A DNA stretch of 64,000 nt from Acidimicrobiaceae bacterium (GTDB lineage Bacteria > Actinomycetota > Acidimicrobiia > Acidimicrobiales > JAUTXP01): assembly GCA_030837965.1 (NCBI GenBank), contig JAUTXP010000004.1, positions 1-64,000 of the forward strand. The letters run 5' to 3'. Made by a program: the position numbers and the translations under genes. Position 1 is the first letter of the stretch, and each line of letters opens with the position of its first letter. Shown piece after piece: positions 47,555 to 64,000 of this stretch. The notes beneath the pieces are model-generated. The model was not told the DNA's origin and searched no databases. It was given only the letters and a program-made list of their open reading frames with translations.

Positions 47555-47569
47555 CGATCTTCGCGTGCG

Positions 47570-47938
47570 TCAGACAGAGACAGGCTGATGGGCGCGTCGC
47601 CCGGACGTGTGCGCGGCCAGGGGGATCACCTTGCCCATGGGACGTCGACGCTCGCAACGCCGGCGCGTGTCGCACAGCAGGTGGCCCGCCAGCGACGTGC
47701 TGGTGGGGTCCCACGCCTTGGGCTCGTCCCACAGGGCGAGGAACGTCTCCTCCACGACTGCTTCCGCGTCGAGGGGATTGTCGAGAAGCCGCCTGGCCAT
47801 CACGAACACCAGGGGGCCGTAGAGGGACAGCGCCGCGTTCAGGGCCGCCTTGCTGCCCATGGCGATGCGCGCCGTCAGCCACTCATCCCCAATGGCCGTT
47901 TGTGACATGCCCAGGTTCTCCGTTGAGATATCAGTCAC
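47570..47938 (-). CDS. Sigma-70 region-2-only protein
   Basis: 122 residues from the GTG that lies six bases after TATGGT; an ATG at 47908 is an alternative start giving 112 residues. It aligns with region 2 of ECF-like sigma factors (ALSLYGPLVFVMARRLLDNPLDAEAVVEETFLALWDEPKAWDP, then LAGHLLCDTRRRCERRR), the part that binds the core enzyme and the -10 box. It stops after about 25 further residues with no region 4. The frame is clean, so this is a short protein rather than an obvious frameshift remnant. As first gene before tryptophanase it could be a regulator that uses a partner for -35 recognition. Confidence 0.75.
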   Translation of the reverse strand: MTDISTENLGMSQTAIGDEWLTARIAMGSKAALNAALSLYGPLVFVMARRLLDNPLDAEAVVEETFLALWDEPKAWDPTSTSLAGHLLCDTRRRCERRRPMGKVIPLAAHTSGRRAHQPVSV

Positions 47939-47944
47939 CCTTGC

Positions 47945-47973
47945 ACCATACGACTGATTCGCCCTGTGGGCAA
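47945..47973 (-). promoter_or_regulatory. Promoter of the sigma-like/tryptophanase transcript
   Basis: Minus-strand TTGCCC (47968-47973) and TATGGT (47945-47950) with a 17-base spacer; the -10 box ends six bases before the GTG at 47938, indicating a leaderless transcript. An 11-bp inverted repeat lies just upstream at 47996-48042. Confidence 0.6.
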
Positions 47974-47995
47974 CCAACTCCTCGTTGATTCTCCC

Positions 47996-48042
47996 TTCTG
48001 GGCACGAAAACTTGCCCCTGGGCGAAGAAAACGTGCCCAGAA
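47996..48042. promoter_or_regulatory. Inverted repeat between the divergent sigma-like and AraC genes
   Basis: TTCTGGGCACG (47996-48006) and CGTGCCCAGAA (48032-48042) form a perfect 11-bp inverted repeat with symmetric AAAA tracts and an inner CTTGCCC/GGGCGAAG near-repeat. It lies upstream of both divergent genes, in a fitting place for an AraC-type activator site. Confidence 0.6.
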
Positions 48043-48073
48043 GCGGGGGACGGGTCGTGATATACCAGCACGC

Positions 48074-48796
48074 GTGCGTCCCGGGCCCGAGCTGTCGCAG
48101 CAGGTGGCGGCCGAGCTGTTCGACGGAGTGCCCAACGCCATGTTCTGCGTCAAGGACCGTGAGGGCCGGTACACGGCCGTGAACCAGGCCTTCGTGGAGC
48201 GCACGTCGTGCCGCTCGATCAGCGAGGTGCTCGGGCGTACCGCCCACGAGGTCTTCCCGCCCGACCTGGCCGCCTCTTATCTGGCCCAGGACGAAGCCCT
48301 GCTGGCGGGCGGCCCGGCCCTCAAGAACCAACTCGAGCTGATCCTGCGGGCCGACGGCAGCGTGGGCTGGTACCTCACCACCAAGGTGGGAGTGGTCGAC
48401 GCCGCGGGCACGCTGAACGGCATCGCCTCGGTGTCCGTCGACCTGGGCGCGCCCGCGGCCACGCCCACGCCCGTGCCTGCCCTGGCCGCGGTGGCCGAGG
48501 CCGTCCGCCGGCGCTGCACCGAGAACCTGCGGGTGGCCGAGCTGGCCGACATCGCAGGCATGACCGTGGCTCAGCTCGAGCGCAACATGAAGCGGGTCTT
48601 CGGCCTGTCGGCCAAGCAGTTCGTGCTGCGGACCAGGCTGGAGCTGGCCCTGCACCTGCTCTCGGTGGAGAAGATGTCGCTCGCCGACGTGGCCGCCCGC
48701 TGCGGGTACTACGACCAGGCTGCCTTCACCCGACAGTTCAAACGGGTGGTGGGCCTGACGCCTGGCGACTACCGGGCCCGCGCTCGCGCCAGCTAG
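48074..48796 (+). CDS. PAS-domain AraC-family regulator
   Basis: 240 residues from GTG 48074, seven bases after TATACC and without a ribosome-binding site; the frame is open further upstream through the inverted repeat, which is not coding. A PAS sensor domain comes first (LFDGVPNAMFCVKDREGRYTAVNQAFVERT, then LRADGSVGWYLTTKVGVVDAAGTLNGI). A C-terminal AraC double helix-turn-helix follows (LRVAELADIAGMTVAQLERNMKRVFGLSAKQFV, then SLADVAARCGYYDQAAFTRQFKRVVGLTPGDYR). Divergent from the sigma-like/tryptophanase genes and convergent with the aminopeptidase gene, sharing its stop region. It is the obvious candidate activator of the tryptophanase transcript; the PAS ligand is unknown. Confidence 0.87.
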   Translation: MRPGPELSQQVAAELFDGVPNAMFCVKDREGRYTAVNQAFVERTSCRSISEVLGRTAHEVFPPDLAASYLAQDEALLAGGPALKNQLELILRADGSVGWYLTTKVGVVDAAGTLNGIASVSVDLGAPAATPTPVPALAAVAEAVRRRCTENLRVAELADIAGMTVAQLERNMKRVFGLSAKQFVLRTRLELALHLLSVEKMSLADVAARCGYYDQAAFTRQFKRVVGLTPGDYRARARAS

Positions 48797-50187
48797 ACGG
48801 CGCGGAGGTCGGCCATCCACCGCTCGACGTCGTCGGCGCGAGTGGGGAGGGCCGCTGACAGGACGCGACAGCCGTCCTCGGTGATGAGCACGTCGTCCTC
48901 GATGCGCACGCCGATGCCGCGGTAGTCGGCTGGCGCCAGCAGGTCGTCGGCCTGGATGTAGCACCCGGGCTCGACCGTGAACACCATGCCCGGCTCGAAC
49001 GTGCCTGCCCGGTACTCCTGGGCGCCTGCGGCGCAGTCGTGGACGTCCAGGCCGAGCATGTGGCTGGTCCCGTGCAGCGTGAACCGCCGGTACAGCCCGA
49101 ACTCGTCGAACTCCTGCGGGGCATCGGGGATGAAGCCGCGGGCGGCCAGCCAGCGGGCCAGCACGGCCGTGGCCGCCCGATGGGGAGCGAGGAAGTCATT
49201 GCCCGGCCGGCACTCGCGCAGGGCGGCGGCGTGGGCGGCGAGCACGGCGTCGTAGACGTCGCGCTGTTCAGGGGAGAACCGGCCCGACACCGGCAGGGTG
49301 CGGGTGACGTCGGCCGCGTACAGCCCGGGGCCCTCGGCGCCCGCGTCCAGCAGCAGCAGGCCTCCCGCCTGCACACGGGTGTGCCCGGAGGTCCAGTGCA
49401 GCGTGCACGCATGGCTCCCGGCCGCGGCGATGACCGGATAGGCGCCGTCGCTGCCCTCGCTGCGGGCCCGGCGCAGGAAGGTGGCATCGATCCACCGCTC
49501 GCTCACGCCGCCGTCGGCGGGCAGGTCGCGCACCACGTCCTCGAAACCACGGCAGGTGATGTCCACCGCGTCCTGGATGCACTCGATCTCGAACTCGTCC
49601 TTCACCAGGCGCAGCAGGCCCAGGTCCTTGGCCAGGTCGGCGTCGTCCGACTCCACGGTGCCCAGGGTGGCGTCGGCCAACGCGTCCAGCTCGGCGTCGA
49701 TCCCCCGCCGCAGCCGGGTCTTGGCCCCGCTCCCGCTGCTCTCCTTGAGGTCGGCCAGCAGCTCGTCTCGGGTCGCGGTGTCGATGCCGAGGGTGGAGGC
49801 CAGGTCGGCCAGCGGGGGCCGCCGCCCCACCCACAGCTCGCCCGCCCGGTCGGCGTAGAACGCAGGTGTGGACCGGTCCAGCCTGCGCTCGAGGTAGAGC
49901 TTGGCCGTGTGACCCGACTCGGTCGGAAACAGGACAACGACGGCGTTGGGCTCGCTGTGCCCGCACAGCCAGACGAAGTCGCTGGCCGCTCGGAACGGGT
50001 GCTCGATGTCATTGGCCCTGAACTGCGGGGGGCCGGACGCGACGACGATCGTCTGACCCGGATAGCGGGCCGACAGCGCCTGTCGACGGGCCGCGCACCA
50101 CGAGGCCGCAGGGGAGGCGGCGCGAGGGGCGGCGGGGGGCGGGGCCCAGTCCCGCAGCATGAAGGCGTCGAGGGCCACTTTGCTCAT
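48793..50187 (-). CDS. M24-family metallopeptidase (aminopeptidase P-like)
   Basis: 464 residues from ATG 50187, eight bases after GGAGG; the ATG two codons upstream abuts the site and is less likely. An N-terminal Xaa-Pro aminopeptidase domain (ALSARYPGQTIVVASGPPQFRANDIEHPFRAASDFVWLCG) is followed by the pita-bread catalytic domain. The metal ligands are complete: LLLLDAGAEG, YAADVTRTL, HGTSHMLGLDVHD, FTVEPGCYI and RIEDDVLITEDG. It removes an N-terminal residue before proline. The stop overlaps the stop of the convergent AraC gene (shared CTAG). Divergent from the leucine-type dehydrogenase gene, in line with peptide and amino-acid use. Confidence 0.9.
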   Translation of the reverse strand: MSKVALDAFMLRDWAPPPAAPRAASPAASWCAARRQALSARYPGQTIVVASGPPQFRANDIEHPFRAASDFVWLCGHSEPNAVVVLFPTESGHTAKLYLERRLDRSTPAFYADRAGELWVGRRPPLADLASTLGIDTATRDELLADLKESSGSGAKTRLRRGIDAELDALADATLGTVESDDADLAKDLGLLRLVKDEFEIECIQDAVDITCRGFEDVVRDLPADGGVSERWIDATFLRRARSEGSDGAYPVIAAAGSHACTLHWTSGHTRVQAGGLLLLDAGAEGPGLYAADVTRTLPVSGRFSPEQRDVYDAVLAAHAAALRECRPGNDFLAPHRAATAVLARWLAARGFIPDAPQEFDEFGLYRRFTLHGTSHMLGLDVHDCAAGAQEYRAGTFEPGMVFTVEPGCYIQADDLLAPADYRGIGVRIEDDVLITEDGCRVLSAALPTRADDVERWMADLRAV

Positions 50188-50359
50188 TGCCATCCCCTCC
50201 GGCTCACCGCGTGAGCTAGCAGGGTTTCGTTCTAATACTTCAGAGGGGGCAAATGATTGTACGAACGACCGGGGCGGGTGGGGCCAAGCACACAAGACCG
50301 CGGGTGCTCAATAGAAGGGCCGCAGCCAACGACGTCTGGGGCAGAAGGGGACACCAGCC

Positions 50360-51433
50360 ATGACGACCGACACCTCTCTGGACCGCTACGGCGAGTTCGA
50401 GCAGGTCGCCCACTTCCGCGACGACACCAACGGGTTGGACGGGCTCATCGCCATCCACTCGACCGTGCTCGGACCCGCCCTCGGCGGGGTGCGGTTCCGC
50501 CGTTACCGGTCAGGCTTCGAGGCACGCAACGACGCCCTCCGCCTGGCCCGAGGCATGACGTACAAGGCCGCAGTCGCGGGCCTGGACCTGGGCGGGGGCA
50601 AGGCCGTCATCGACGGCGATCCCGGCTCGGTCGACCGGGTCGCGCTGTTCCGGGCCTTCGGTGAGGCGGTCGAGTCGCTGGGTGGCCGGTACATCACGGC
50701 CGAGGACGTGGGCACCACCGTGGAGGACATGGTCACGGTGGCCACGGAGACCGGCCACGTCGTGGGCCTGCCCGAGAGCAAGGGCGGCCTGGGTGATCCG
50801 AGCCCGTCGACCGCCCTCGGCGTGCTGGCCTCCCTGAAGGCCGCGCTGGCCTTTCTCGACGGGGGCTCCACGTTGGTGGGGCGCACCATCGCCGTGTGCG
50901 GCCTGGGCAAGGTCGGCGCCGTGCTCGTGCGCATGCTGGTGGAGGAAGGCGCGGCCGTGGCCGTGGCCGACGTGGACGGCGAGCGGGTGACGGCCCTGGC
51001 CGATCAACTGGGCGTCAAAGCCGTGGAGGTGGAGGACATCCACCGCATCTCGGCCGACGTGTTCGCCCCGTGCGCGCTGGGCGGCATCCTCACCTCGAAC
51101 TTGATCCGCGAGCTCGACGTGCAAGCGGTGGTGGGCGCGGCCAACAACCAGCTCGCCACGCCGTCGTCGGCCGACTTGTTGGCCGGTCGAGGCATCGCCT
51201 ATGTGCCCGACTTCGTGGCCAACGCGGGCGGACTGATCCACGTGGCGTGGGAGGCCAAGGCCAGCCTGGCCGACGTGCAGACCAAGGTCCTCGAACTGGG
51301 CGACCGGGTCACCGACCTGCTGACCCAGGCCGCCGAGGCAGGCATCTCCACCCAGGCCGCGGCCGAGAAGGTGGCCGAAGCACGCATCCAGGCTCGCCTC
51401 GACGCCCGCAGCCAGCTCGGCGCCACTCGCTGA
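50360..51433 (+). CDS. Leucine/valine-type amino-acid dehydrogenase
   Basis: 357 residues with an AGAAGGGG site. A member of the Glu/Leu/Phe/Val dehydrogenase family of the short leucine-dehydrogenase type: GPALGGVRFRRY, the catalytic Lys region MTYKAAVAGLDLGGGKAVI, TAEDVGTT, the nucleotide motif CGLGKVGAVLV and AANNQLATP. It deaminates branched-chain amino acids with NAD to 2-keto acids, or the reverse. Substrate preference (Leu, Val or Phe) cannot be fixed from the sequence. A palindrome follows as terminator. Confidence 0.9.
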   Translation: MTTDTSLDRYGEFEQVAHFRDDTNGLDGLIAIHSTVLGPALGGVRFRRYRSGFEARNDALRLARGMTYKAAVAGLDLGGGKAVIDGDPGSVDRVALFRAFGEAVESLGGRYITAEDVGTTVEDMVTVATETGHVVGLPESKGGLGDPSPSTALGVLASLKAALAFLDGGSTLVGRTIAVCGLGKVGAVLVRMLVEEGAAVAVADVDGERVTALADQLGVKAVEVEDIHRISADVFAPCALGGILTSNLIRELDVQAVVGAANNQLATPSSADLLAGRGIAYVPDFVANAGGLIHVAWEAKASLADVQTKVLELGDRVTDLLTQAAEAGISTQAAAEKVAEARIQARLDARSQLGATR

Positions 51434-51581: not shown

Positions 51582-52691
51582 TTAGGGCTTCCGGGTCGTG
51601 GTCGTCGTCATGGCGCCAGGGGCGGGCACGCCGGGCGGTGCGGGCGCGCTGGCTCCGGCGGGTGCCGATGGCGTGCCTGTGGGTGCCGATGGCGTGCCGG
51701 CGGGGACCGTGGGCGCAGTGGGCGGGGCGGCCGCGGGCTGGGGGAACGCCCTGGGCGGCAGCACGACAGTCGCCGTGATCTGGGGCAGCGTGATCTTGGC
51801 CGCCTCGGGCCCGGGGAAAGCGATGGTCGTGACCTCGTGATACGGGAGGGGCACGAGCGGCGCTCGGATGTCCTTGACCTTCACCCGCCCCTTCGTGGCG
51901 GCGCGCTTGAGGGCCCATTTCAAATCCTTTCGGACCCGTTTCACATCGATGGCCAGCCGCTCCTCGACCCGAGTGATCCTGCCGTCTTTGAACCAGAACG
52001 AGCTGTAGAGGAAGCGTGTCCGCATCTCGCTGGAGAAGTACGGCGGGATCCCGTGGTCGTACAAGTCGTTCCTGTCGTACTTCTTGATGGGGAACACGTC
52101 GTAGCGGACGCCGAACTCCTTGTGGCCGTCGAACTTGTCGTCCTTGCGTTCATAGGTCTGACCCTTCGGGTCCCACTTCTTTGCTCTGGCGAACAACTTC
52201 AAACCGTCCCCCGAGGTCCACGTTTCCATGGACCGTACGAAGTCGAGAGTCAGGCGCGGATCGAGGACCTTTTCCGGCGCAGACGGGTTCAGGAACTCAT
52301 TCGGGGCGTGGGCGGCATCGGCGACCCAGGACCCCGCGAGCAACGGGGCCAGCCCAGCGCTGGGGACCCACGGAGGAACCTGATGCTGCGGGTCGGCGAG
52401 CCGCACGGCCCGGACATCGTCGTAGACGACCTCCTCATACTGAAGGGCGCCATCCGAGGTGACCGCGCCGCGATAGCGGTAGTCGTCCTCGATGGCGGCA
52501 CTCATGTTGCTCTTGGAGCTGCCCTCGGTGCGCTCGAACTCGATGGTGCGCGGCTGCTCAACCGCGGCCCGCAAGGCTGCCCTCCGGTAGTCGAAGCTCA
52601 ACTGCACGCCTTCGGCCGTGCCACATGCACCGGACGCGGCCACCGCGCCCGTGGCCAGCACGATGGCGAGCACGCGATGACGGATTCTCAT
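51582..52691 (-). CDS. Lipoprotein of locus B with Pro/Ala/Thr-rich tail
   Basis: 369 residues. Signal peptide with lipobox ASGAC; the mature part to about residue 300 is soluble, with RTIEFERTEGSSKSNMSAAIEDDYRYRGAV near the start and a basic stretch (DVKRVRKDLKWALKRAATKGRVKVKD). The shape suggests a beta-rich, lipid- or protein-binding lipoprotein, but no family is recognised. The last 50 residues are repetitive (GTPSAPTGTPSAPAG). It is the last gene of locus B; its start overlaps the previous lipoprotein stop (ATGA), so it belongs to the same unit. Confidence 0.8.
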   Translation of the reverse strand: MRIRHRVLAIVLATGAVAASGACGTAEGVQLSFDYRRAALRAAVEQPRTIEFERTEGSSKSNMSAAIEDDYRYRGAVTSDGALQYEEVVYDDVRAVRLADPQHQVPPWVPSAGLAPLLAGSWVADAAHAPNEFLNPSAPEKVLDPRLTLDFVRSMETWTSGDGLKLFARAKKWDPKGQTYERKDDKFDGHKEFGVRYDVFPIKKYDRNDLYDHGIPPYFSSEMRTRFLYSSFWFKDGRITRVEERLAIDVKRVRKDLKWALKRAATKGRVKVKDIRAPLVPLPYHEVTTIAFPGPEAAKITLPQITATVVLPPRAFPQPAAAPPTAPTVPAGTPSAPTGTPSAPAGASAPAPPGVPAPGAMTTTTTRKP

Positions 52692-53203
52692 GGGCGTAGC
52701 TCCAATGCCTGACGCAGGATGGACCTTGGCGCGGGATGGTCGACGGCGACGGCGAGCACGAACAGGGACGAGTCGCGGAACCAGATGTACTCGGGCTGCT
52801 GGTTGGCCGCGGTGACGTAGACGCGAGTCCCCTCAAGCATGCGCGGCCGCCAACTGGACTCGGCGATCAAGGCGACGATCGTCCTCTGGAACTTCTCGTT
52901 CGTGGGGTCGGAGTCGGGCACGAAGGTGCTGACCTGCAAGGTCGCCTTCAGCCTGTCCCCAGCCCGAAGTCCCCACAGGCGCGTCGACGATACGTACGAG
53001 GTCTTGGCCACCTTCTTTTCGAGCGCGCTCACGTCTTCCGGCGTCACGTTCAGCCCCGCGAACTGAGGAGGCAACAGGTCCGGTCGCACCGAGGTGGGCG
53101 CACCGCTGGGCCGCACCGTCACCTTCTCCGACGACGGGCCGCTGCACCCGCCGGACAAGGCAGCAAGGGCGGTCACGACGACGACAGCGCAGAGTCGTCT
53201 CAC
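52688..53203 (-). CDS. Small lipoprotein of locus B, homologous to a module fused in locus A
   Basis: 171 residues from the GTG overlapping the stop of the fusion-transporter gene. Signal peptide with lipobox LSGGC. The mature part includes LQVSTFVPDSD, ARVYVTAANQQPEYIWF-like (TRVYVTAANQQPEYIWF) and SLFVLAVAV, which match VQVSMFKPDVD, RLLTANRPEQQVYVWF and NVMYLFIYRK in the C-terminal module of the protein at 1-2760. The family is unknown. Presence in both loci, once free and once fused to the transglutaminase-fold protein, indicates physical interaction between the two products. Confidence 0.82.
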   Translation of the reverse strand: MRRLCAVVVVTALAALSGGCSGPSSEKVTVRPSGAPTSVRPDLLPPQFAGLNVTPEDVSALEKKVAKTSYVSSTRLWGLRAGDRLKATLQVSTFVPDSDPTNEKFQRTIVALIAESSWRPRMLEGTRVYVTAANQQPEYIWFRDSSLFVLAVAVDHPAPRSILRQALELRP

Positions 53204-56200
53204 GTGATCTCGCCCTGTCGCTGGATCGTGGCCGTGTTGTCGCCGAGGTAGGCCGACACGATGGTCGGATGCCCGAGGACGTCCTCGGCCGGACCCTGGA
53301 TGATGATGCGGCCCTCGGCCATGCCGATGAGTTCGTTGCTGACATTTCTGATCAAGGGCATGTCGTGCTCGATGATCAACAGGCTGCACCCGGTCTCGTA
53401 GCGGACCCGCCGCAGCAGCGGGGCCAGGTTCTCGGCCTCGGCCTGGGCAATGCCGGACGACGGCTCGTCGAGCAGCAGCACGCGCGGCTCGGCCGCGATG
53501 ACGCAGGCCAGGTCGACGACGCGTCGCAAGCCGGTCGACAGGTCCGACACGAACTTGTCCCGATAGCTCCCGAGGTCGAACAGCTCGATCAACCGGTCAG
53601 CGGCGGCCTTGGCTCTGCGCTCGCTCTTGCGGCCCGCGGGCATGCGGCTGGCCAGGACGAACGTGTTCCGCACGTCCAGCCGCCGTTCGAGGGCCACGCA
53701 CAGCGTCTCGTGCACGGTCAGCGAGGGGAACAGCCGGGCGTCCTGGAATCGCCGCACCAGCCGGGCCCTGGCGCGCGCATCGGCCGATTCGTTGGACAGG
53801 TCGACGCCGTCGAGGAACACGGTGCCGCTGTCGGCTCGCTGTCGGCCTGAGATCAGGTCGAACAGCGTCGTCTTGCCCGCCCCATTGGGCCCGATGATGC
53901 CGAGGGCCTCGCCTTCGTGGAGGGTGAACGACACGTCGTCCACCGCCAGCTTGCCGCCGTAGCGCTTGGTCAGGCCCGCGACCTCGAGGAGGGGGCGACC
54001 CACCTCCGTCGAACGACGGTCGGCCGTCCCACCAGTGAGGGCGCCCGCGCCCTTGACGTAGACCGAGCGCATGAGGTCGGGCCGAGTCAGAAGGTCGGCC
54101 GTGGCGCCTTCGAACTTGACCTCGCCCTTCTCCATGAACACCGCTCGCGAGGCCAACGACAAGGCCACGTTCACCGACTGCTCGACCAACACGATCGTGG
54201 TCCCCTGGGCGTGGATGGCCCGCACGATGTCGAGCAACTGGGCCACGATCGCAGGCGACAGGCCGAGCGACAGCTCGTCGATCATGAGCAGACGGGGGCG
54301 TCCGAGAAAGGCCTGGCCCAAGGCCACCATCTGCTGCTCGCCGCCCGAGAGCGACCCCGCGTCCTGCTGCATCCGGTCACGAAGGACGGGGAAGAAGTCC
54401 AGCACCTCTTCGATGCGGCCCTCGGCCTCGTCCGGCGGGCAGTTCCAGAGGGCCAGACGCAGGTTCTCGCTCACCGTCAGGCCGGGGAAGATGGCCTTGC
54501 CGCCGGGCATCGACACCACTCCGAGCGTGCTGATGTCGTTCGGTGGCAGGTGGGTGATGTCGCGCCCGTCCATATAGATGGCGCCGTTGGACGCCTCGTG
54601 GGTGCCGCTGATGGCCCGCAACAGGGTTGACTTTCCCGCCCCGTTGGTGCCAAGGAGGGCGACGATCTCGCCTTCCTCCAACGTGAGGTCCACGTTGAAC
54701 AACACTTGGACGCTGCCATAGCTCACGTCCACGTCCTTGCAGATGAGCAACCTGCTGCCGCCCGCCAGCTTGGCCCTGCGGTACTGGTCCTTGGCCATGG
54801 CCGACGCGAAGGCGGCCCGCATGTCGAACTCGAAGAACTTGGCCGCAGAAAGGCCGATCAGTGGGCCGACGATCATGATCGGATACAGCAGCAACAAGCC
54901 ATTCCGAATGCCGAAGGCGGCCTGGACTCGACCGCCCAACGGACCGCCGAAGATGCTGATGACGCCCATGGCCGACCCCACGATGGAATACCCGAACCCA
55001 CGCAGGCGGGGCGGCAGGATCTGGGCCGAGATCACGGCAGAAGCCGGAATCGTGAGCGAGCGGAAGAACGAGAACAGCGTGTTGAAGATCAGGAAGAACC
55101 ACATCGACGGGGCCAGGATGGTCACCAGTACAGAAAGGGCCCCGACCAGACCGAGCAGACCCTGCGCCACGATCACACGGGACGGGCGGTAGCGGATGAG
55201 GACGTCCGTAAGGGCGCCGCCGACGATGAGGCCGATGAGCCCGGTGATGTGGCTGGGGATGCCGATCAGCGAGCGCTGGAACGCGTTCAACCTGAACTTT
55301 TCGAGCATGTAGAAACCCAAGAGGAACTGAAAGGCGCCGGAGAACGCCACCGTGAGGGCCTGCGCGGTGAGGTTTCGTCGGAGGGTTCGGATGGCCAGCA
55401 CGGTGCGAATGGCCTCGGATGCGCGCACCGGCGGCTCCGGGTCCATCGCCGTCTCTTCGCTCGCGCCGAGGTACTGCCGCTCCCAGTAGCCACGGATCGG
55501 GTCCTTGAGCTTCCGCATGACGAAGAAGCCGGTGAAGATCATCAACGGGCCGGTAATGAGAAACGGCGTGCGCCAGCCGACAATGACGGCAAGGCCGCCC
55601 AGGGTCGGCGCCAGGAAGAGCCCGACCACCGTCCCCACGGTCCCGCTGAACGCGCTGACCTTGCCTCTGGCCTCCACCGGGTAGTAGTCGAAGAGGAGGG
55701 TGTTGGCTGGGGTCGAGCCCAGTTGCTCGCTGGCCCCGTCCACGGTGCGGGCCGTGAAGATCTGAAAGGCGCCATAGCACTTGGCCGTCACCAGCGAGAA
55801 GATGCCGGAGAGGATGGAACTGATGCCCAGCATCCGGACGCGACTGTGCCGGTCGCTCAGGTGACCAACCAGCGGCCCCAGGGCGAGCCCGATGGCCCCG
55901 GTGAAGAAGCCGATGTCGCTCAGGGTCTTGATGGAGATGCCCAAGTCCTTGCGGATCTCCGGCCCAAGGGCACTGAAGATGCCGTCGTCGAGAGCCTGGG
56001 CAAAGCCCACGAACATGAGCACCAGCAGCGGAGACAGGCCGTATTTGGTCTTGCGCAAGGCCTTGACGCCGATCAGGTCCTGCTTGATGGCGTTCCAACT
56101 CAGCTTCTCGCTGACGGCGGCCCGGGCACGCGACCCCATCATGTTGGTCATGGAGGGCGCCTCGGTGGTGACGATGGGCACGACTTCGGCCATGTCGTCG

Positions 56201-56241
56201 TCCGGGGTGGCGACCGGCCGCTCCTGGGTCACGTCCGTCAT
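53200..56241 (-). CDS. MFS transporter fused to two Liv-type ABC ATPases
   Basis: 1013 residues in one clean frame. Residues about 70-475 form an MFS domain with the loop motif GHLSDRHSRVRML and about twelve helices. From about 497 a LivF-like ATPase follows (Walker A GTNGAGKST, Q-loop VVSMPGGKAIFPGLTV, signature LSGGEQQMVALGQAFL, Walker B LLMIDELSLGL, switch LVEQSVNVA). From about 747 a LivG-like ATPase follows (GPNGAGKTT, RRFQDARLFPSLTV, signature LSTGLRRVVDLACVI, LLLDEPSSGI, IIEHDMPLI). The ATG overlaps the stop of the LivH-LivM fused permease gene, so both would assemble into one complex. A secondary transporter tied to ATPases that normally power a different permease is unusual. Substrate unknown. 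Confidence 0.9.
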   Translation of the reverse strand: MTDVTQERPVATPDDDMAEVVPIVTTEAPSMTNMMGSRARAAVSEKLSWNAIKQDLIGVKALRKTKYGLSPLLVLMFVGFAQALDDGIFSALGPEIRKDLGISIKTLSDIGFFTGAIGLALGPLVGHLSDRHSRVRMLGISSILSGIFSLVTAKCYGAFQIFTARTVDGASEQLGSTPANTLLFDYYPVEARGKVSAFSGTVGTVVGLFLAPTLGGLAVIVGWRTPFLITGPLMIFTGFFVMRKLKDPIRGYWERQYLGASEETAMDPEPPVRASEAIRTVLAIRTLRRNLTAQALTVAFSGAFQFLLGFYMLEKFRLNAFQRSLIGIPSHITGLIGLIVGGALTDVLIRYRPSRVIVAQGLLGLVGALSVLVTILAPSMWFFLIFNTLFSFFRSLTIPASAVISAQILPPRLRGFGYSIVGSAMGVISIFGGPLGGRVQAAFGIRNGLLLLYPIMIVGPLIGLSAAKFFEFDMRAAFASAMAKDQYRRAKLAGGSRLLICKDVDVSYGSVQVLFNVDLTLEEGEIVALLGTNGAGKSTLLRAISGTHEASNGAIYMDGRDITHLPPNDISTLGVVSMPGGKAIFPGLTVSENLRLALWNCPPDEAEGRIEEVLDFFPVLRDRMQQDAGSLSGGEQQMVALGQAFLGRPRLLMIDELSLGLSPAIVAQLLDIVRAIHAQGTTIVLVEQSVNVALSLASRAVFMEKGEVKFEGATADLLTRPDLMRSVYVKGAGALTGGTADRRSTEVGRPLLEVAGLTKRYGGKLAVDDVSFTLHEGEALGIIGPNGAGKTTLFDLISGRQRADSGTVFLDGVDLSNESADARARARLVRRFQDARLFPSLTVHETLCVALERRLDVRNTFVLASRMPAGRKSERRAKAAADRLIELFDLGSYRDKFVSDLSTGLRRVVDLACVIAAEPRVLLLDEPSSGIAQAEAENLAPLLRRVRYETGCSLLIIEHDMPLIRNVSNELIGMAEGRIIIQGPAEDVLGHPTIVSAYLGDNTATIQRQGEIT

Positions 56242-58472
56242 GCGGGCACCTCCTGTCGAGTCGGCGTCCTGCCGTGCAACTCAGAAGGCCGGGTGTACCT
56301 GCGGACCTCGGGGATGGCTTCCAGCCCGCGGTAAGGAATGCGCTGCACCAAAGGCGCCCGGCGCGTGGCTACCGCTTCCAGGTCGGCGTCCTCGAACAGG
56401 CTGGGCACGGCAATGCCGCGACGCAAGGCGACGATTCGCAGCACGCCGTCGCGCGCTTGGGTGACCAGCCCGGCCAACCCTCCGGGCGCGATGAACAGCA
56501 GGAGCAACAAGCCGCCGCTGGTCACCACGTTGCGGATGACATCGCCTCGAATGAGGAAGGTGACGAGGCCGATGTAGGCGGCGCCCAGCACGGCACCCGC
56601 GGTGGCGCCGATACCGCCGACCATGGTCATGATGAACATGTCCACGGAGACCGAGGCGGCATAGACGTCCACGTCCACGGCTCGCTGGTGGTGGACGAAG
56701 AGCACTCCGGCCACCCCCGCCAAGGCGCCGGACACGGCGAAGGCAGCCAGGCGAATCCGCATCAGCGAAACGCCGAATGACTCGACGCCGGACTCGTTCT
56801 CCCGGGCCGCGATCAGGACTCGGCCGGTACGGCTGTGGCGCAGGCCGCGGACCACGAACACCGCCCCCAACAACATGGCCAGGCACAAGAAGTAGTAGCT
56901 GCGCTCGGACTCGAAGGAGATGAACAAGAGTCGGGGCCGGTTGACGCCGAGCGGGATGATCGTGCGGAACCAACCGCTCTGGAAGAGCGTGCTCTGAGCG
57001 GCCACGGCGAAGGCCAACGTGGTCACGGCGAGGAACGCGCCGCGGATTCTGAGGGCCGGGATGCCGAGCAGAACGGCGAACCCACCGGTCAGAGCGGCGA
57101 CGAGCGGGAGGGCCACCCAGAACGGCACGCCGTGTGAAGACGTGAGGTTGCTGCTCAACACCGCGGCCACGGCCACCAGTGCGAACTGACCCAGTGAGAC
57201 CGTGCCCGACCACCCCGTGAGCACGATGAGCGAGAGGGCCACGATGGCCTGGATGAAGATCACCGTCACCAGGTGGGTCTTCCCGCCGGACATGGCGAAG
57301 GGCGCGGCCGCGGTGACAACCAGCACGACCCCGATGAGGATGCGCCGGGTGCGCCGGATCTCGGGCACGGTCGACAGCTCCTTGGGAATGGGCCGGATCT
57401 CCTTGGTGGCCTCCCATGACGAGGACTCGCCGTCCTCGCTGCGGCTGCCCCGGCGCCGTTGCAGGAGCAGCCCGCCCGCGATGACGGCCAGCAGTCCCAA
57501 CTCCACGACGGCCGTGTTCGGGTACGACCAGACCACGGCCACCGACACCATGCCGATGGTCACCGCGGTCACCACCGCGGTGGAGATGTTGGTCATGCGG
57601 CCCAGGACGGCGGCAGCCAGCGCGGGGATCAGGAACTGTTCGGGGGCGCGGTCGGTGTTGCCGTAGACGAAGCCCTCGCTTATGCCTCGCAGCAACAAGC
57701 CGAGTGCGGCGAAGGCTCCCGTCATCGTCCACACGGCGGCGCCGACCGATCGCACGTTGATCCCCAGGGACTGAGCCCGCTCCGCGTTCACGGCCACGCC
57801 TCGCACCGCGGTGCCCAGCCGGCTGCGCCGCATCCACAGGGCCAGACCGCCTAACGCGCAGACGGCGGCGAACACGGTGAACAGGGCTGCGAAGTCCAGG
57901 GGCACGCCGAGGACCTTCCACACCGAGTGCCCGAACGGCAGCTGCATGCGGGACTGTTCGAGGAAGTCCTGGTTGTTCAAGTCGCCGACATGGCCCTTGA
58001 TCACCGGCAACCCGTTGACGTAGTCGCGGGAGTTCCCGAGGAAGCGGGCCACCACGATGGTCACCACGGTCACGACCAGCCGCGGGGAGTTGAAGAAGCG
58101 CTGCACGAACAGCACGTTGATCAAGAACCCGGCGCCTGCCCCGAGGAGAAGGCAGATGGGCACGGCGATCACGAAGGGCACGTGGAACACGCCGACCAGG
58201 ACGAAGGCGAAGTAAGCCCCCATGGCCCCCATAGCCGCCTGGGCGAAGTTCACGACACGCGCGCTGCGCCAGACCAGCACGATGCCCACGGCCAACATGG
58301 CATCGCCCATCCCGCGGACAAAGCCGGAGACCCAAACCGATGCGGGAGCCGGACGCGGGAGCAGGATGGTGACGGCCAACGCCGCGAAGGCGACGCCCGC
58401 CACATTGGCGGCCACCCTGCGCTTGGTGGACTCGGGCGGCAGAACCCGGTCGATCGACGCGAACAGGCTCAT
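56238..58472 (-). CDS. LivH-LivM fused branched-chain-type ABC permease
   Basis: 744 residues. Residues 1 to about 340 match a LivH-type permease (GMGDAMLAVGIVLVWRSARVVNFAQAAMGAMGAY, then TAVRGVAVNAERAQSLGINV, the ATPase-contact region). A charged linker (about 341-385, RRRGSRSEDGESSSW) leads to a LivM-type permease (WSGTVSLGQFALVAVAAVLSSNLT, RVLIAARENESGVESFGVSLMRIRLAAFAVSGALAG). A cytosolic tail of about 50 residues ends the protein. Single-chain HM permeases occur in actinobacteria. Its ATG overlaps the upstream lipoprotein stop and its stop overlaps the MFS-ATPase gene. The Liv family usually moves amino acids, urea or amides, but no Liv binding protein is encoded here. Confidence 0.92.
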   Translation of the reverse strand: MSLFASIDRVLPPESTKRRVAANVAGVAFAALAVTILLPRPAPASVWVSGFVRGMGDAMLAVGIVLVWRSARVVNFAQAAMGAMGAYFAFVLVGVFHVPFVIAVPICLLLGAGAGFLINVLFVQRFFNSPRLVVTVVTIVVARFLGNSRDYVNGLPVIKGHVGDLNNQDFLEQSRMQLPFGHSVWKVLGVPLDFAALFTVFAAVCALGGLALWMRRSRLGTAVRGVAVNAERAQSLGINVRSVGAAVWTMTGAFAALGLLLRGISEGFVYGNTDRAPEQFLIPALAAAVLGRMTNISTAVVTAVTIGMVSVAVVWSYPNTAVVELGLLAVIAGGLLLQRRRGSRSEDGESSSWEATKEIRPIPKELSTVPEIRRTRRILIGVVLVVTAAAPFAMSGGKTHLVTVIFIQAIVALSLIVLTGWSGTVSLGQFALVAVAAVLSSNLTSSHGVPFWVALPLVAALTGGFAVLLGIPALRIRGAFLAVTTLAFAVAAQSTLFQSGWFRTIIPLGVNRPRLLFISFESERSYYFLCLAMLLGAVFVVRGLRHSRTGRVLIAARENESGVESFGVSLMRIRLAAFAVSGALAGVAGVLFVHHQRAVDVDVYAASVSVDMFIMTMVGGIGATAGAVLGAAYIGLVTFLIRGDVIRNVVTSGGLLLLLFIAPGGLAGLVTQARDGVLRIVALRRGIAVPSLFEDADLEAVATRRAPLVQRIPYRGLEAIPEVRRYTRPSELHGRTPTRQEVPA

Positions 58473-59512
58473 GCCGGTGCCGGCCCAAGCGGCTTGAGTC
58501 CGCCGATGTTGGAGGTGCTGTCCGTCGAGTAGCGCAGGGGGCCGAAGCTCCCCTGGGTCACGATGTGGTCACCCACGATCAGGCCGCCGAGCTGCGGCGC
58601 GAAGTAGAACTCGTAGGTCGTATTGGTGATGGCGTTGGCCTGGTTGGGCGGCAGGCCCTGAAGGACCCGCACGCCGTTCGTGAACTTCCAGGCCTCCACC
58701 ACTTCACCGCAGGCGTCGAGGCGGTACCGCGTGGCCGCGTCGACCGAGCCGGTGATGTTCAGCACCAGGCCGCTCGCCGGGTCGACGCTCGTGGCGCTGA
58801 CCGCGGGCTGGTTCTGGGCCGGGAGCTTCACGAGCTGCGGGGCCAACGCGGGCACCGGATTGAAGTCGATGTTGAAGTCCGGCATCTTGTACTGGAGCCG
58901 GGTGAGGAAGATGCCGTCAGCGGGCGAGAACTGACTGGTGCGGCGCACCTCGTAGGTGTCGATCTCGCTGCCGAAGAGGCCGACAGGCTGCTCGATCTCG
59001 AAGGCGTTGATGCCAGGCACCAGGTTGGGCAGGGCCCGCACGATCCGCCTGGTCAACGGAGGCAGCGGGATCTGGAGCAGCGGCGGCAGGTCGAACGTGC
59101 CCTTCTGCTTCCACTTGTAGGTGCCGGACTCGACCGTCCCGATGACCTCGAAGGTGGCGGACTTCTCGGGGAACGTGTTCTCGTCGGCCTGTGGGCAGTC
59201 CCCCGACCCATTGCCGCTGAACCCGGTGAAGGGCTTGAACTCTTCGAACTGCGGTGGCTCGATGTCGAACGACAGTCCGGTCAAGTCCAACAGGTTGGGC
59301 ACGGACGCGACCGGGAGCGTGAACGGCGCCGCGGGCGCGGCCGGGGCCTCCACGCCGAAGGCCAAGTCGGTCGACAGCTTCTTGACCGTGGTGCCGTCCG
59401 CCGGGTCGGCCACCTTCAAGAATCCGGGCATGCCGCAGGCCGACGACGAAAGGGCCATGACGACCAGGGCGGCCGACAGGCGCGGGCGCGGGCGCTTAGG
59501 CAGCAGGGGCAT
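58469..59512 (-). CDS. Lipoprotein of locus B, paralogue of the locus A lipoprotein
   Basis: 347 residues. Basic start, hydrophobic segment and lipobox SSSAC. A Pro-rich linker, then a beta-rich domain. The C-terminal blocks DACGEVVEAWKFTNG and LGGLIVGDHIVTQG match those of the lipoprotein at 2757-3752. The N-terminal halves are less alike. No periplasmic-binding-protein fold of Liv type is evident, so it is not an ordinary substrate-binding protein. The gene starts inside the end of the transglutaminase-fold gene (17-base overlap) and its stop overlaps the permease start. Confidence 0.84.
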   Translation of the reverse strand: MPLLPKRPRPRLSAALVVMALSSSACGMPGFLKVADPADGTTVKKLSTDLAFGVEAPAAPAAPFTLPVASVPNLLDLTGLSFDIEPPQFEEFKPFTGFSGNGSGDCPQADENTFPEKSATFEVIGTVESGTYKWKQKGTFDLPPLLQIPLPPLTRRIVRALPNLVPGINAFEIEQPVGLFGSEIDTYEVRRTSQFSPADGIFLTRLQYKMPDFNIDFNPVPALAPQLVKLPAQNQPAVSATSVDPASGLVLNITGSVDAATRYRLDACGEVVEAWKFTNGVRVLQGLPPNQANAITNTTYEFYFAPQLGGLIVGDHIVTQGSFGPLRYSTDSTSNIGGLKPLGPAPA

Positions 59513-61793
59513 CAGTGGCCTCCTCTTGTCGGGGTGTGGCTTCCGCCATGCGGCGGTTCAGTTCGGGGGCGTAGGGATGGCGAAGCGAGAGTCGGGAGAC
59601 GAGCCCGATCATGCGGATGGACACCGGCTGGGCCTGGGTGATGCGCTTCTTCATGACCCGGGACAGCTCGGCCGCGTCCAAGACGTGGTCCTCTTTGAGC
59701 TCTCGGCGCAGGTCCCCCCACACCACCCGGGTCACGAGCCACGCCAGCTCTCTGTGCTCCTCGTCGTCCACGACGAGGTCGAGGAACTCCAGCGGCGACG
59801 CCGACCGTCCTCGCAAGCCGAGGTCGGTGCAGACATCGCGGAACTCGGAATACGAATGGGCCACGCGCTCGCGCACGCCTTGGGTGGCGATGCGCCGTCG
59901 GACGAGGTACCGGCGGTACGCCTTCCACCACGCGGGCCACAGGATGTAGAGGACGAACAGGACGAGCAGGACCGGAACGAGGAACAACAAGATGCGCGCC
60001 ACCTGGGCGAACCACGGCGCCTTCGACGTCGTGCGCAGCGGGAAGAAGACCTGCACGGCGATGTCGGTGCTCTGCTGGACCTCTGGGTGCTCCACCGTCG
60101 GGCCGTCGGGCTGGAGGGTGGTCTTGGCCGATGCGGGCGAGCCCAGTACCGGCAGCCACTTGTAGCCGGGGAAGTAGACCTCGAGCCACGACGAGCCGTT
60201 CTTGGGCCGGATCTCACGCTCGCCACTGGCCAGCTCGACGCCGCCGTCATAGCCGTAGCCGATCCGCGAGGGCACACCGGCCCACCGGGCCAGCATGGCC
60301 TGGGCGGCCACGATCTCGAAGGGGCTGCCCTCTTTCGAACCGGTAAGCATGTCGACCACCCGCTCGGGCGACACGGCCTTGGGCACGCCGGGCCCCGCGG
60401 CCACCGTGGTCTCCAAAAGGTGGCGGCGAAGGAAGTCCATACGGTCCCACTTGTTGGGCGGGGCCTGGGCCAGCAGGGACAGGATCTCGGGCGGCGCGGC
60501 CGGGATGGCCAGGGCGCGCTGCACCTCGGGCGGCAGCGGGCCGTCGGCCTTGCGCAGGTCGTCCTCGGTGGGCAGCGTCGGCGCGGCAACCGTGTAGCGC
60601 AGGCCGGCGCGGATCTGGCCTTGGGCCAACCGGATGTTGCCGGTCCGGCCGTCGTACGCCAGGCGAGGGCCGACCGCCTGGATGGCGCTCGTGTTGGGCA
60701 GGCCGGGCAGCACCGCCCCGCCCAGGTCGGCGATGACGAACTCGGCCGACACGTTCGGCTTCAGGTCCTTGTCCACCACGCCGGTCTTGGGCACGGGCTT
60801 GAGCCGCGACTCGGCGAACGCGGGCAGACGCCATTCGTTGTTGACGTAGACGTCCAGCATCCCGATCCGCCACGGGCCGGTGACCGACGACGACACCGTG
60901 AACAGCGGGCGGTCCTTCACCTGAGAAAGGGGGACGGCCTTGGGGGTGACCGAGTCGCGGGTCGGGTCGATCCTGGGCTTCGGGAACAGGATGTCCGTCT
61001 GGGCCAAGGCGTACAGGGCCACGACGATCAAGGCCAAGAGGGGAAGGGCGCGCGCCGTGCGCTTCAGCTCGTACTTCAGGCCGGGCGCCCGCTCGGCCCC
61101 TTCGATCAAGCCCTGCAAAGAGGCCAGCAGAGCCAGGCCGATGATGAACAGGACGGCGGAGATGATCCCCGAGGCCAGCTTCTGACTCTCGGGCACCGAG
61201 ATGGCGCCGTAGGCGATGGCGGGGAGGGGAAGCAGAAGGCCGAGGGCAGGGCGGCGCAGCTCGATGCCCACCCATCCGGCTGCGAACCCGATGCTGGCCA
61301 TGACGAACCCGAGGACGAACCGCCACCCGGGCAGGAACTCGGCGGGCGGCCGCAGGACGCGTGAAGCGCCCTTGGCCTCGGAGATCACCGAGCCGAGGTG
61401 GACGATGTTGTCCATGCCCGTCGGCAGCACCAGCAACAAGGCGGTGGCGACGATGCCGACGACGATGGTGATGTTGACCCAAAGTGCGCTCTTGCGCCGC
61501 GAGGCCTGGGCCGCGGTGGCGATGCCGCAGACCGCGGCCAGCACGGGCGCGACCTTGCCCACCGCGCCTTCGAACAGCCCGCTCAACATCACCGCCGCGG
61601 CGATGGAGGTGGTCGAGACCACCAAGCCTGTGCGCAGCGGCGGAAGCGGGGGCTCGACCAGACCGCTGTCGGCCGAAGCGGCGACGGCCTCGTCGCCCGC
61701 GGCGTCGATGTCGCGCTCGATGTCCCCGACCTCGTCGAGGTGCTCGACAATGCGCTCTTCGAGCGTCTCCAGGTTCTCGTCGAGGAGGGTCAC
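59496..61793 (-). CDS. Transglutaminase-fold membrane protein without catalytic triad
   Basis: 765 residues from the GTG overlapping the DUF58 stop. A cytosolic N-terminus (about 55 residues) is followed by about seven membrane helices to residue 265. A large outer region contains the transglutaminase core (AMLARWAGVPSRIGYGY and SSWLEVYFPGYKWLPVLG); another helix (LLFLVPVLLVLFVLYILW) and a cytosolic domain (FRDVCTDLGLRGRSASPLEFLDLVVDDEEHRELAWLVTRVVWGDL) complete it. The catalytic Cys position is Pro491, the His position Ser and the Asp position Leu, so no transglutaminase or protease activity is expected. The MoxR-DUF58-transglutaminase order is a common bacterial set of unknown exact role. 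Paralogue of 1-2760, without the fused lipoprotein. Confidence 0.9.
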   Translation of the reverse strand: MTLLDENLETLEERIVEHLDEVGDIERDIDAAGDEAVAASADSGLVEPPLPPLRTGLVVSTTSIAAAVMLSGLFEGAVGKVAPVLAAVCGIATAAQASRRKSALWVNITIVVGIVATALLLVLPTGMDNIVHLGSVISEAKGASRVLRPPAEFLPGWRFVLGFVMASIGFAAGWVGIELRRPALGLLLPLPAIAYGAISVPESQKLASGIISAVLFIIGLALLASLQGLIEGAERAPGLKYELKRTARALPLLALIVVALYALAQTDILFPKPRIDPTRDSVTPKAVPLSQVKDRPLFTVSSSVTGPWRIGMLDVYVNNEWRLPAFAESRLKPVPKTGVVDKDLKPNVSAEFVIADLGGAVLPGLPNTSAIQAVGPRLAYDGRTGNIRLAQGQIRAGLRYTVAAPTLPTEDDLRKADGPLPPEVQRALAIPAAPPEILSLLAQAPPNKWDRMDFLRRHLLETTVAAGPGVPKAVSPERVVDMLTGSKEGSPFEIVAAQAMLARWAGVPSRIGYGYDGGVELASGEREIRPKNGSSWLEVYFPGYKWLPVLGSPASAKTTLQPDGPTVEHPEVQQSTDIAVQVFFPLRTTSKAPWFAQVARILLFLVPVLLVLFVLYILWPAWWKAYRRYLVRRRIATQGVRERVAHSYSEFRDVCTDLGLRGRSASPLEFLDLVVDDEEHRELAWLVTRVVWGDLRRELKEDHVLDAAELSRVMKKRITQAQPVSIRMIGLVSRLSLRHPYAPELNRRMAEATPRQEEATDAPAA

Positions 61794-63085
61794 GTGCTCA
61801 CCCCTGCGCCGACGCCCGAGCGCGAGAGTGCGGCGCCGATGTCGTCATGGGGGCCGACACCGATGACCTGGCAGCCCAACGAGGCGGCCCGGCCCATGGT
61901 CTCCGAGTCCTCTTCGTCCCACAGCAGGGCGACGACCGCGATCGACACGCCCGAGTTCAACAACAGCTTCAACTGGCCCGCGTCGGTTGACGTGAGGCGG
62001 GGCGTGATGAGGACGTAGTGGGTGTCGCGCTGGGGGTTGGCCTGAAGCCGGCGCAATACCTGGGTCAACGGGTCCCGGCCCATGTCGACGCGCGCCAGCG
62101 CGTCGAGCATGAGGAGCGTCTTCTCGGGCCCGCGCATGGCCCGGGTCAGCGCACCGCCGTTGGTCTCGCACTGGACCTCGTAGCCATCGCCCAGATGGGC
62201 CACTCCCAACGACGCCGCCACTCGCACCGCGGCCTCGAAGGACTCGGAGTACTCGCCGTCGCGGCTGTGGTGACCCCTGTCGGTGTCGAGGATCATGAGG
62301 ATGCGGTCGGTGATGCCCTGCTCCGCCTCCCAGATCATCAAGGTGCCGGTGCGGGCCGTGGCCCGCCACACGATGCGCCGGATGTTGTCGCCGGGCCGGA
62401 ACTCGCGCATGCCGTACAGCTCCATGCCTGACGGCCAGGGCTTCGACACCGGTGGGCGCATGGGCGGGTCTTCATACTGACGGGTCAAGGGCCGCCCGCT
62501 CACTCGCTCCACGGTCGGGTGCACGAGCAGCTCGAACGGCTCGCAGACCAGCGTCTCGCGTTGGGCTAGCCCGATGGGGTCGCTGGCCACGGCCACAAGC
62601 GGGCCGATCTGATAGGCGCCGCGCCGCGAGCACTGCAACGAATACTCGTGGGTGACAGTGGTGTCGCGCGACACCCCGCTCACCGGCACCCGCACGGGCG
62701 TCCCCAAGGCCTCGGGCAGGCGCTCGTCGAGGATGAAGTTGCCCACCCGGCGCTCGGCCGTGAGGGACACCACCACCTCCAGGCGGTCGCCCGCCTGCAC
62801 CCGCGGGAACAGACCGGTCCGGTCGCCGGTGATGCGCAGCTTGCGGGGGGCGAGGAAGAACGCACACACCACGACCAGCACGGTCCCGTAGCTGAAGATG
62901 TAGAGGGCGGTTCCCGCCACCACGTAGGCGATCACCCACGGCACCACCGCTCCGGCCAGCGCGGTGCGGCCCGCGCGGGTCAGCCCCGACTTGCGGACAG
63001 CGGTTTCGGCGACACGCCGAAGGGCAGGGAACGCGAGTGCGTCCCGAACCTTGTCCAGCGTGAGCAGAAGGCCGCGGCGGTCCAT
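61790..63085 (-). CDS. DUF58-domain membrane protein
   Basis: 431 residues from ATG 63085. Two membrane helices near the N-terminus (about 40-80: VVPWVIAYVVAGTALYIFSY and VLVVVCAFFLA), a beta domain resembling CARDB-like repeats, then DUF58 with the motif YGMREFRPGDNIRRIVWRATART. The C-terminal von Willebrand A-like fold has LMILDTDRGHH in place of the metal-site DxSxS motif, so metal binding is doubtful. It follows the MoxR gene by 8 bases and is coupled to the transglutaminase-fold gene. In known systems MoxR ATPases act on DUF58/VWA partners; that is the expected pairing here. Confidence 0.9.
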   Translation of the reverse strand: MDRRGLLLTLDKVRDALAFPALRRVAETAVRKSGLTRAGRTALAGAVVPWVIAYVVAGTALYIFSYGTVLVVVCAFFLAPRKLRITGDRTGLFPRVQAGDRLEVVVSLTAERRVGNFILDERLPEALGTPVRVPVSGVSRDTTVTHEYSLQCSRRGAYQIGPLVAVASDPIGLAQRETLVCEPFELLVHPTVERVSGRPLTRQYEDPPMRPPVSKPWPSGMELYGMREFRPGDNIRRIVWRATARTGTLMIWEAEQGITDRILMILDTDRGHHSRDGEYSESFEAAVRVAASLGVAHLGDGYEVQCETNGGALTRAMRGPEKTLLMLDALARVDMGRDPLTQVLRRLQANPQRDTHYVLITPRLTSTDAGQLKLLLNSGVSIAVVALLWDEEDSETMGRAASLGCQVIGVGPHDDIGAALSRSGVGAGVST

Positions 63086-63093
63086 GGCGACAG

Positions 63094-64000
63094 TTACGAG
63101 AAGTCGGCGGTGTGCTTGGACTTCATGGGCGCCTTCACGGCCGTGGTGATGCGCTCGAGGCCGGCCGCCACCGTCTCGCCCCGAAGGACGAAGTCGGGGT
63201 TCATCAGGACTCGGTGGGCGAGCACCGGCCCGAGCACGGCCCGCACGTCGTCCGGATAGACGTCGACCCGGCCGTCGGACGCGGCCAGCACCCTGGCCGA
63301 CTTGAGCAGGGCGATGGATGCACGAGGGCTGGCGCCCAAGGCGAACGCAGGCTCCTTGCGGGTGGCCCCGACGAGGGCGACGATGTACTCGCACACCTCG
63401 GGCGGCGCCACGACCTTGGTGGCCCCGTACCTGATCATGTCGGTGACGGTCGCCGTGTCGACCACCGGCCCCAGGTCCTCGATGGCCAAGGCCACCGAGT
63501 TGGCCAGCATGACCTCGACTTCGGCCTCGGCCGACATGTAGCCCATCGAGAGCTTGAAGAGGAAGCGGTCGAGCTGGGCCTCCGGCAGCGGGAACGTGCC
63601 CGCCTGTTCCACCGGGTTCTGGGTGGCCAGCACCAGGAAGGGACGGGGAAGGTCGCGGGTCACCCCGTCGGCCGACACCCGGCGCTCGGCCATGGCCTCG
63701 AGGAGGGCCGACTGCGTCTTGGGCGTGGCCCGGTTGATCTCGTCGGCCAGGAGCACGTTGGTGAACACCGGCCCGGGCATGAAGACGAAGGACTGCTCCT
63801 TCTGGTCGAAGATCGACGACCCGGTGATGTCGCCGGGGAGCATGTCCGGGGTGCACTGCACGCGGGCCGTCTCTGCGTCGATCGACTGGGCCAAGGCCCG
63901 GGCCAGCATCGACTTGCCCGTGCCGGGCACGTCCTCGAACAGCACGTGCCCTTCGGAGAGCACGGCGACCAACGACAGGGTGACCACGTCGGTCTTGCCT
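63094..64000 (-). CDS. MoxR-family AAA ATPase (5' partial)
   Basis: The first codons lie beyond the window; the frame runs to the edge with GKTDVVTLSLVAVLSEGHVLFEDVPGTGKS, so only about 30-40 residues are missing. Walker A GTGKS, Walker B with LLADEINRATPKTQSALLEAMAE, sensor region LVLATQNPVEQAGTFPLPEAQLDRFLFKL and the C-terminal lid (ASPRASIALLKSARVLAASDGR) are intact. MoxR ATPases remodel or load partner proteins. First visible gene of locus B, and presumably its energy-dependent chaperone. Confidence 0.92.
   Translation of the reverse strand, partial: GKTDVVTLSLVAVLSEGHVLFEDVPGTGKSMLARALAQSIDAETARVQCTPDMLPGDITGSSIFDQKEQSFVFMPGPVFTNVLLADEINRATPKTQSALLEAMAERRVSADGVTRDLPRPFLVLATQNPVEQAGTFPLPEAQLDRFLFKLSMGYMSAEAEVEVMLANSVALAIEDLGPVVDTATVTDMIRYGATKVVAPPEVCEYIVALVGATRKEPAFALGASPRASIALLKSARVLAASDGRVDVYPDDVRAVLGPVLAHRVLMNPDFVLRGETVAAGLERITTAVKAPMKSKHTADFS

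Follow-up and report, generated by a model that had tools for sequence, protein, structure and literature searches.

The window (the whole 64,000-nucleotide stretch of DNA analyzed here) carries on its minus strand the gene order MoxR, DUF58, transglutaminase-like protein, SP, LivHM, MFS-LivF-LivG fusion, Lp1, and Lp2. Several of the junctions between these genes are overlaps of four bases. The features are as follows.

51582..52691, minus strand: Lp2, a lipoprotein with homologues downstream in several A1 loci
52688..53203, minus strand: Lp1, a small lipoprotein with a GTG start (inferred) overlapping the stop codon of the fusion; homologues follow the fusion in A1 loci
53200..56241, minus strand: MFS (Spinster-like)-LivF-LivG fusion, 1013 aa (open frame, Pfam, NCBIfam, profile matches)
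53236..53997, minus strand: LivG-like ATPase (residues 749-1002), signature LSTGLRR (NCBIfam/Pfam, motifs)
54037..54750, minus strand: LivF-like ATPase (residues 498-735) (NCBIfam/Pfam, motifs)
54751..54825, minus strand: mostly helical linker, residues 473 to 497 (model, sequence comparison)
54826..56034, minus strand: MFS domain with 12 TM helices (about residues 70-472), including TM1 D85, motif A D130/R131/R134, and TM4 R165 (model, profile, conservation)
56238..58472, minus strand: LivH-LivM fused permease, 744 aa, with coupling helices at 216-239 and 547-568 (Pfam, helix motifs)
58469..59512, minus strand: SP, a lipoprotein with invariant Cys26, a DACG motif, and an all-beta model, directly before LivHM
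59496..61793, minus strand: membrane protein with a transglutaminase-like domain, catalytic residues absent (alignment)
61790..63100, minus strand: DUF58 protein (start approximate)
63094..63987, minus strand: MoxR-family AAA ATPase (AAA_3), whose start is possibly further upstream

Domains of the fusion protein and its permease

The minus-strand frame 53200-56241 opens with ATG, has no internal stops, and encodes 1013 aa. Pfam identified one MFS_1 domain starting at residue 75 (E 3e-37) and, after it, the ABC_tran domain twice (E 2e-60), and NCBIfam assigned residues 498-730 as LivF/UrtE-like and residues 749-1001 as LivG/UrtD-like. Motif A of the MFS domain reads GHLSDRHSRVRM. Walker A, Walker B, and signature motifs were all found in the Liv-type ATPase pair: the LivF part contains GTNGAGKS (Walker A, 531), LSGGEQQ (signature, 631), and LMIDE (Walker B, 652), while the LivG part contains GPNGAGKT (Walker A, 784), LLLDE (Walker B, 922), and the signature LSTGLRR, a variant of LSGGQ that was seen again in homologues. 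The original prediction, that a single frame of 1013 residues joins an MFS domain to LivF-like and LivG-like ATPases, was borne out by the frame itself, by Pfam, and by NCBIfam. Its further statement that all nucleotide-binding motifs are present stood for Walker A and B of both ATPases and for the LivF signature, but was slightly too strong with regard to the variant LivG signature. The same prediction had LivH and LivM supplied by the adjacent overlapping gene, and indeed the 744-aa neighbour matches BPD_transp_2 twice in Pfam, as LivH-LivM, with the start of the fusion overlapping its stop by 4 bp.

Both coupling-helix motifs of LivHM are conserved in all groups of related systems, whether or not these have an MFS partner. 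Therefore, by sequence comparison, the LivF/LivG ATPases have LivHM as their permease, and the MFS part is an extra component. Related systems that are devoid of the MFS part (L023, L025-L027, L127) have the rest of the gene set, and since these close relatives do without it, the MFS part is, as judged from gene content, dispensable for the ABC core. This core resembles Liv/HAAT importers (LivFGHMJ) in its LivF/LivG-like ATPases, in its LivH/LivM-like permease with coupling helices, and in the Peripla_BP_6 binding protein of loci related to the window system. Unlike in those importers, H is fused to M and F to G, a 12-helix MFS carrier is added to LivF, and the window operon has no adjacent binding protein.

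Homologues and gene layouts

A scan of the genome collection with the fusion protein retrieved 80 loci, mostly from actinobacterial metagenome-assembled genomes. In about 70 loci, from many assemblies that include one-contig genomes, the reading frame crosses the MFS-LivF junction without interruption. A survey of 396 genomes of the phylum gave strong matches in 21 (the source genome counted), some of which consist of one contig. Among them, the one-contig 2.46-Mb genome G016 encodes a stop-free triple fusion, preceded by LivHM and followed by a binding-protein-like gene. The source genome itself has eight MFS-LivF-LivG copies, each with its LivHM, and one LivHM with LivF-LivG that is devoid of the MFS part. 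In the plasmid collection, one MFS-LivF match was found (Embleya NBC_00888) and no triple fusion. That the source genome is a draft of 88 contigs could speak for an assembly or annotation artefact merging two genes. However, the identical junction occurs in many independent assemblies, in one-contig genomes, and in a contig from an isolate (type B, Embleya scabrispora DSM 41855), and an artefact was therefore rejected as vanishingly improbable. The search for homologues proposed with the original prediction thus recovered the same domain order in independent assemblies, one-contig G016 included, and no stop or frameshift separates the MFS and ATPase parts in the homologues read.

Domain mapping distinguished two layouts. 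In type A (the window, L009-L020, and L022), MFS-LivF-LivG comes after LivHM; type B comprises about 50 loci, among them L056 of the isolate E. scabrispora DSM 41855, and has LivH-LivM-LivG after MFS-LivF. The MFS part is joined to LivF in both, and LivG is fused either behind LivF (A) or to LivHM (B). The two genes also stay close together: LivHM and the fusion overlap by 4 bp in 11 of the 12 type A loci where LivHM was resolved and abut in the twelfth, and 44 of 52 type B MFS-LivF frames have a LivHMG frame at most 60 bases away on the same strand, the exceptions with large distances being contig-end or frame-calling cases when inspected. The original prediction held that the attached ATPases may power LivHM, placing a primary and a secondary transporter in one complex. 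At the genomic level this is supported by the constant adjacency or overlap, the intact coupling helices, LivF as the invariable partner, and the near-invariant linker.

The fused MFS domains form one branch (support 99), separate from the 18 free MFS proteins of the source genome, a pattern consistent with one fusion event and later diversification. In the LivF-domain tree, one MFS-less group stands beside the MFS-bearing L019 (support 97), which suggests that the MFS part was lost in that group; the root of this tree, set by two outgroup branches of great length, is unreliable, and only local groupings were used. Other arrangements were also encountered. A 1388-aa open frame (L073:5697-9863, plus strand) encodes LivH-LivM-LivF-LivG as one polypeptide without an MFS part, and three loci (L037, L040, and L076) have two divergent MFS-LivF genes within about 10 kb, with binding-protein-like genes between or near them. 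A 1796-aa frame in C81 (L126), considered as H-M-MFS-F-G in one polypeptide, was rejected, as its extension is a shadow frame and LivHM is encoded in a different one.

The Spinster-like domain and its joint to LivF

An AlphaFold2 model of the MFS domain, built with 52 aligned sequences, has the complete set of 12 helices (mean pLDDT 92). The best profile match in the PDB is HnSpns (E 7e-39), with human SPNS1 (3e-30) and SPNS2 (2e-22) also matched, and the top fold match is SPNS1 with lysophosphatidylcholine, although many MFS folds score nearly alike. By profile and model, the MFS domain is Spinster-like, with a 12-TM fold closest to Spns. It shares with the Spinster lipid transporters of animals and bacteria (HnSpns, SPNS1, SPNS2), besides the best profile and fold matches, the TM1 acid, the TM4 arginine, and the EP.RG loop, whereas here the MFS part is covalently joined to ABC ATPases. 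Asp41 and Arg122 of HnSpns form a protonation-dependent salt bridge that helps control alternating access (PMC9440201). In the profile alignment, D85 (TM1) and R165 (TM4) correspond to these two residues, and an acid (D/E) at position 85 together with R165 is kept in 61 of the 71 fused sequences, the pair being absent from the remaining 10. By contrast, Arg42 and Glu129 of HnSpns are not generally conserved in the fused family: the former corresponds to D86 in the window protein, at a position that varies across the family, and the latter to E172, where most members have K or A and the acid is not conserved.

The retained pair of TM1 acid and TM4 arginine favours transport by the MFS part, and the module is probably transport-competent. 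The main rival to this reading is a non-transporting scaffold or regulator, in which the MFS part would anchor the ATPases at the membrane, or would sense pH or lipid and gate the ABC importer. On the one hand, the MFS part is the least conserved part of the fusion (19-36% identity between the window protein and its homologues) and is dispensable in sister systems, its best-conserved positions are cytoplasmic and near the ATPases (motif A, loop 4-5, EP-RG, P410, R414, and D473), and the linker length is fixed, all of which would suit a scaffold. On the other hand, these cytoplasmic motifs are the gating motifs of working MFS carriers, and a pure scaffold would not need the buried acid and arginine kept in 61 of 71 sequences. 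Fast evolution of the MFS part would be expected of a scaffold, or of a carrier whose substrates change. We regard the scaffold reading as possible yet rather doubtful.

The joint itself varies little in length. From D473, just after TM12, to the Walker A of LivF there are 58-61 residues in 70 of 71 sequences, and in the model a helix continues beyond TM12 and ends near residue 492, five residues short of LivF. A near-constant and mostly rigid joint suggests that the geometry between the two parts is probably important. Covalent fusion and near-constant spacing would also agree with a different arrangement, in which the ATPases drive the MFS part itself as their transmembrane domain. Such a role of an MFS protein as the channel of an ABC system has been proposed for the macrolide resistance pair Mef(A)-Msr(D), in which an MFS membrane protein was suggested to work together with an ABC protein of two domains (PMC6079230). 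Mef(A) and Msr(D), however, are separate proteins that do not form a Liv-type importer and have no dedicated ABC permease, and the MFS part of that pair proved largely dispensable. We consider an ATPase-driven MFS part very unlikely here because LivF and LivG already have a dedicated permease with conserved coupling helices, encoded by the overlapping gene; to our knowledge, MFS proteins have no ABC coupling helices.

Neighbouring genes and a proposed combined transporter

Gene order in A1 relatives is as in the window, and in A2 relatives the MoxR, DUF58, and transglutaminase-like genes follow the fusion. Eight of the 11 DUF58 loci of the source genome, together with MoxR, lie beside its eight fusions (L120-L126; window 51582-63987), for which random placement of DUF58 genes gives a probability of about 4e-10. 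At least one of the MoxR, DUF58, and transglutaminase-like genes is found beside all 15 A1/A2 systems with enough flank, a count of related loci whose subgroups were partly named by this very feature and which are not independent events. None of the three was found beside A3, type B, or MFS-less loci with enough flank. In the transglutaminase-like domain, the positions of the catalytic Cys and His are replaced in 15 of 15 aligned sequences (the window copy and homologues from L009-L012, L014-L016, L120-L123, L125, L159, and L160). The positions of the Cys-His-Asp triad were placed from what we take to be the motif of active relatives (FCEHYA there, TPYEIVA here). The protein is thus a conserved and apparently dead enzyme beside MoxR and DUF58. 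Operons of MoxR, DUF58, and a polytopic transglutaminase-like protein are known, for example, from the bifidobacterial PFNA cluster (PMC6803598), whereas here the three genes accompany an MFS-ABC transporter and the domain resembling transglutaminase is without catalytic residues.

Beside the window operon there is no Peripla_BP_6 binding-protein gene. Pfam-confirmed members of this family lie beside type B loci, and A3 and MFS-less loci have SBP-like genes recognized by sequence character, without a Pfam match. Elsewhere in the source genome there are ten PF13458 matches, and these proteins could serve the fusion system in trans. SP has no Pfam match, carries conserved cysteines and an invariant lipobox Cys, and precedes LivHM directly in subfamily A1 only. 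As a disguised binding protein it was rejected, since its model is all-beta rather than two-lobed and has no convincing fold match.

Among the Pfam-confirmed genes near type B loci are those for an acyl-CoA ligase, an enoyl-CoA hydratase, an acyl-CoA dehydrogenase, a class III CoA-transferase, and an NADH:flavin oxidoreductase-type enzyme, pointing to hydrophobic carboxylic acids as putative substrates of the type B branch only. Within such acyl-CoA catabolic surroundings, the fusion might merely ensure co-production of two functionally uncoupled transporters that serve one pathway independently. This is unlikely in our view, as LivF is the sole partner ever found, the linker is near-constant and predicted to be helical, and the fusion has been kept through deep divergence.

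Transporters are classed as either primary, driven by ATP, or secondary, driven by a gradient. On balance, we consider it probable that the window system is a Liv-type ATP-driven importer to which one Spinster module per complex, probably able to transport, is covalently attached; two kinds of machine that are normally regarded as separate would then probably be built as one. In this ABC importer of the Liv (HAAT) type, the fusion would be the energy-coupling subunit, with the Spinster-type MFS domain at the N-terminus of LivF. LivF and LivG would pair as the ATPase dimer beneath the LivH-LivM permease, giving one each of LivH, LivM, LivF, LivG, and MFS domain per complex, and the MFS domain would sit beside LivHM in the membrane at a spacing fixed by the helix running from TM12 toward LivF. 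It is most likely still a carrier with proton-sensitive gating, possibly for amphipathic or lipid-like molecules, and its job may be to use another energy source on the same substrate, or to carry a related molecule in the opposite direction. In the window subfamily, which has no adjacent binding protein, the lipoproteins and the dead transglutaminase-like membrane protein may present the substrate. Directly observed are the gene structure, the conservation across the family, the retained residues, and the linkage of the genes, whereas the assembly, its stoichiometry, transport by the MFS domain, the substrate, and the role of MoxR and DUF58 are inferred.

Any sharing of a substrate between the MFS module and LivHM, or any influence of ATP hydrolysis on the module, is conjectural. 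A true hybrid, in which the LivF ATPase cycle gates the Spinster module via the TM12-linker helix, or the module exchanges substrate with LivHM, so that a single coupled pathway is subject to both ATP hydrolysis and an ion gradient, is a tentative idea that we hold to be somewhat unlikely.

Both halves of the fusion are of known kinds. A targeted search of openly available papers did not turn up their combination, an absence that does not prove it undescribed. The conserved family, mostly from uncultured actinobacteria, apparently unites both transporter classes in one machine with near-constant spacing and an implied 1:1 ratio, and provides a natural case in which to ask about mechanical coupling between two energy sources. 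For annotation it carries the warning that such fusions readily receive a name that reflects just one of their halves. The link with MoxR, DUF58, and the dead transglutaminase-like protein gives a lead on widespread, unexplained envelope genes.

Outside the operon, and for that reason set aside as a guide to the substrate, lies an amino-acid catabolic neighbourhood (46178-51433) with a beta-eliminating lyase family gene, an aminopeptidase-P-like M24 peptidase gene, and a Glu/Leu/Phe/Val dehydrogenase gene.
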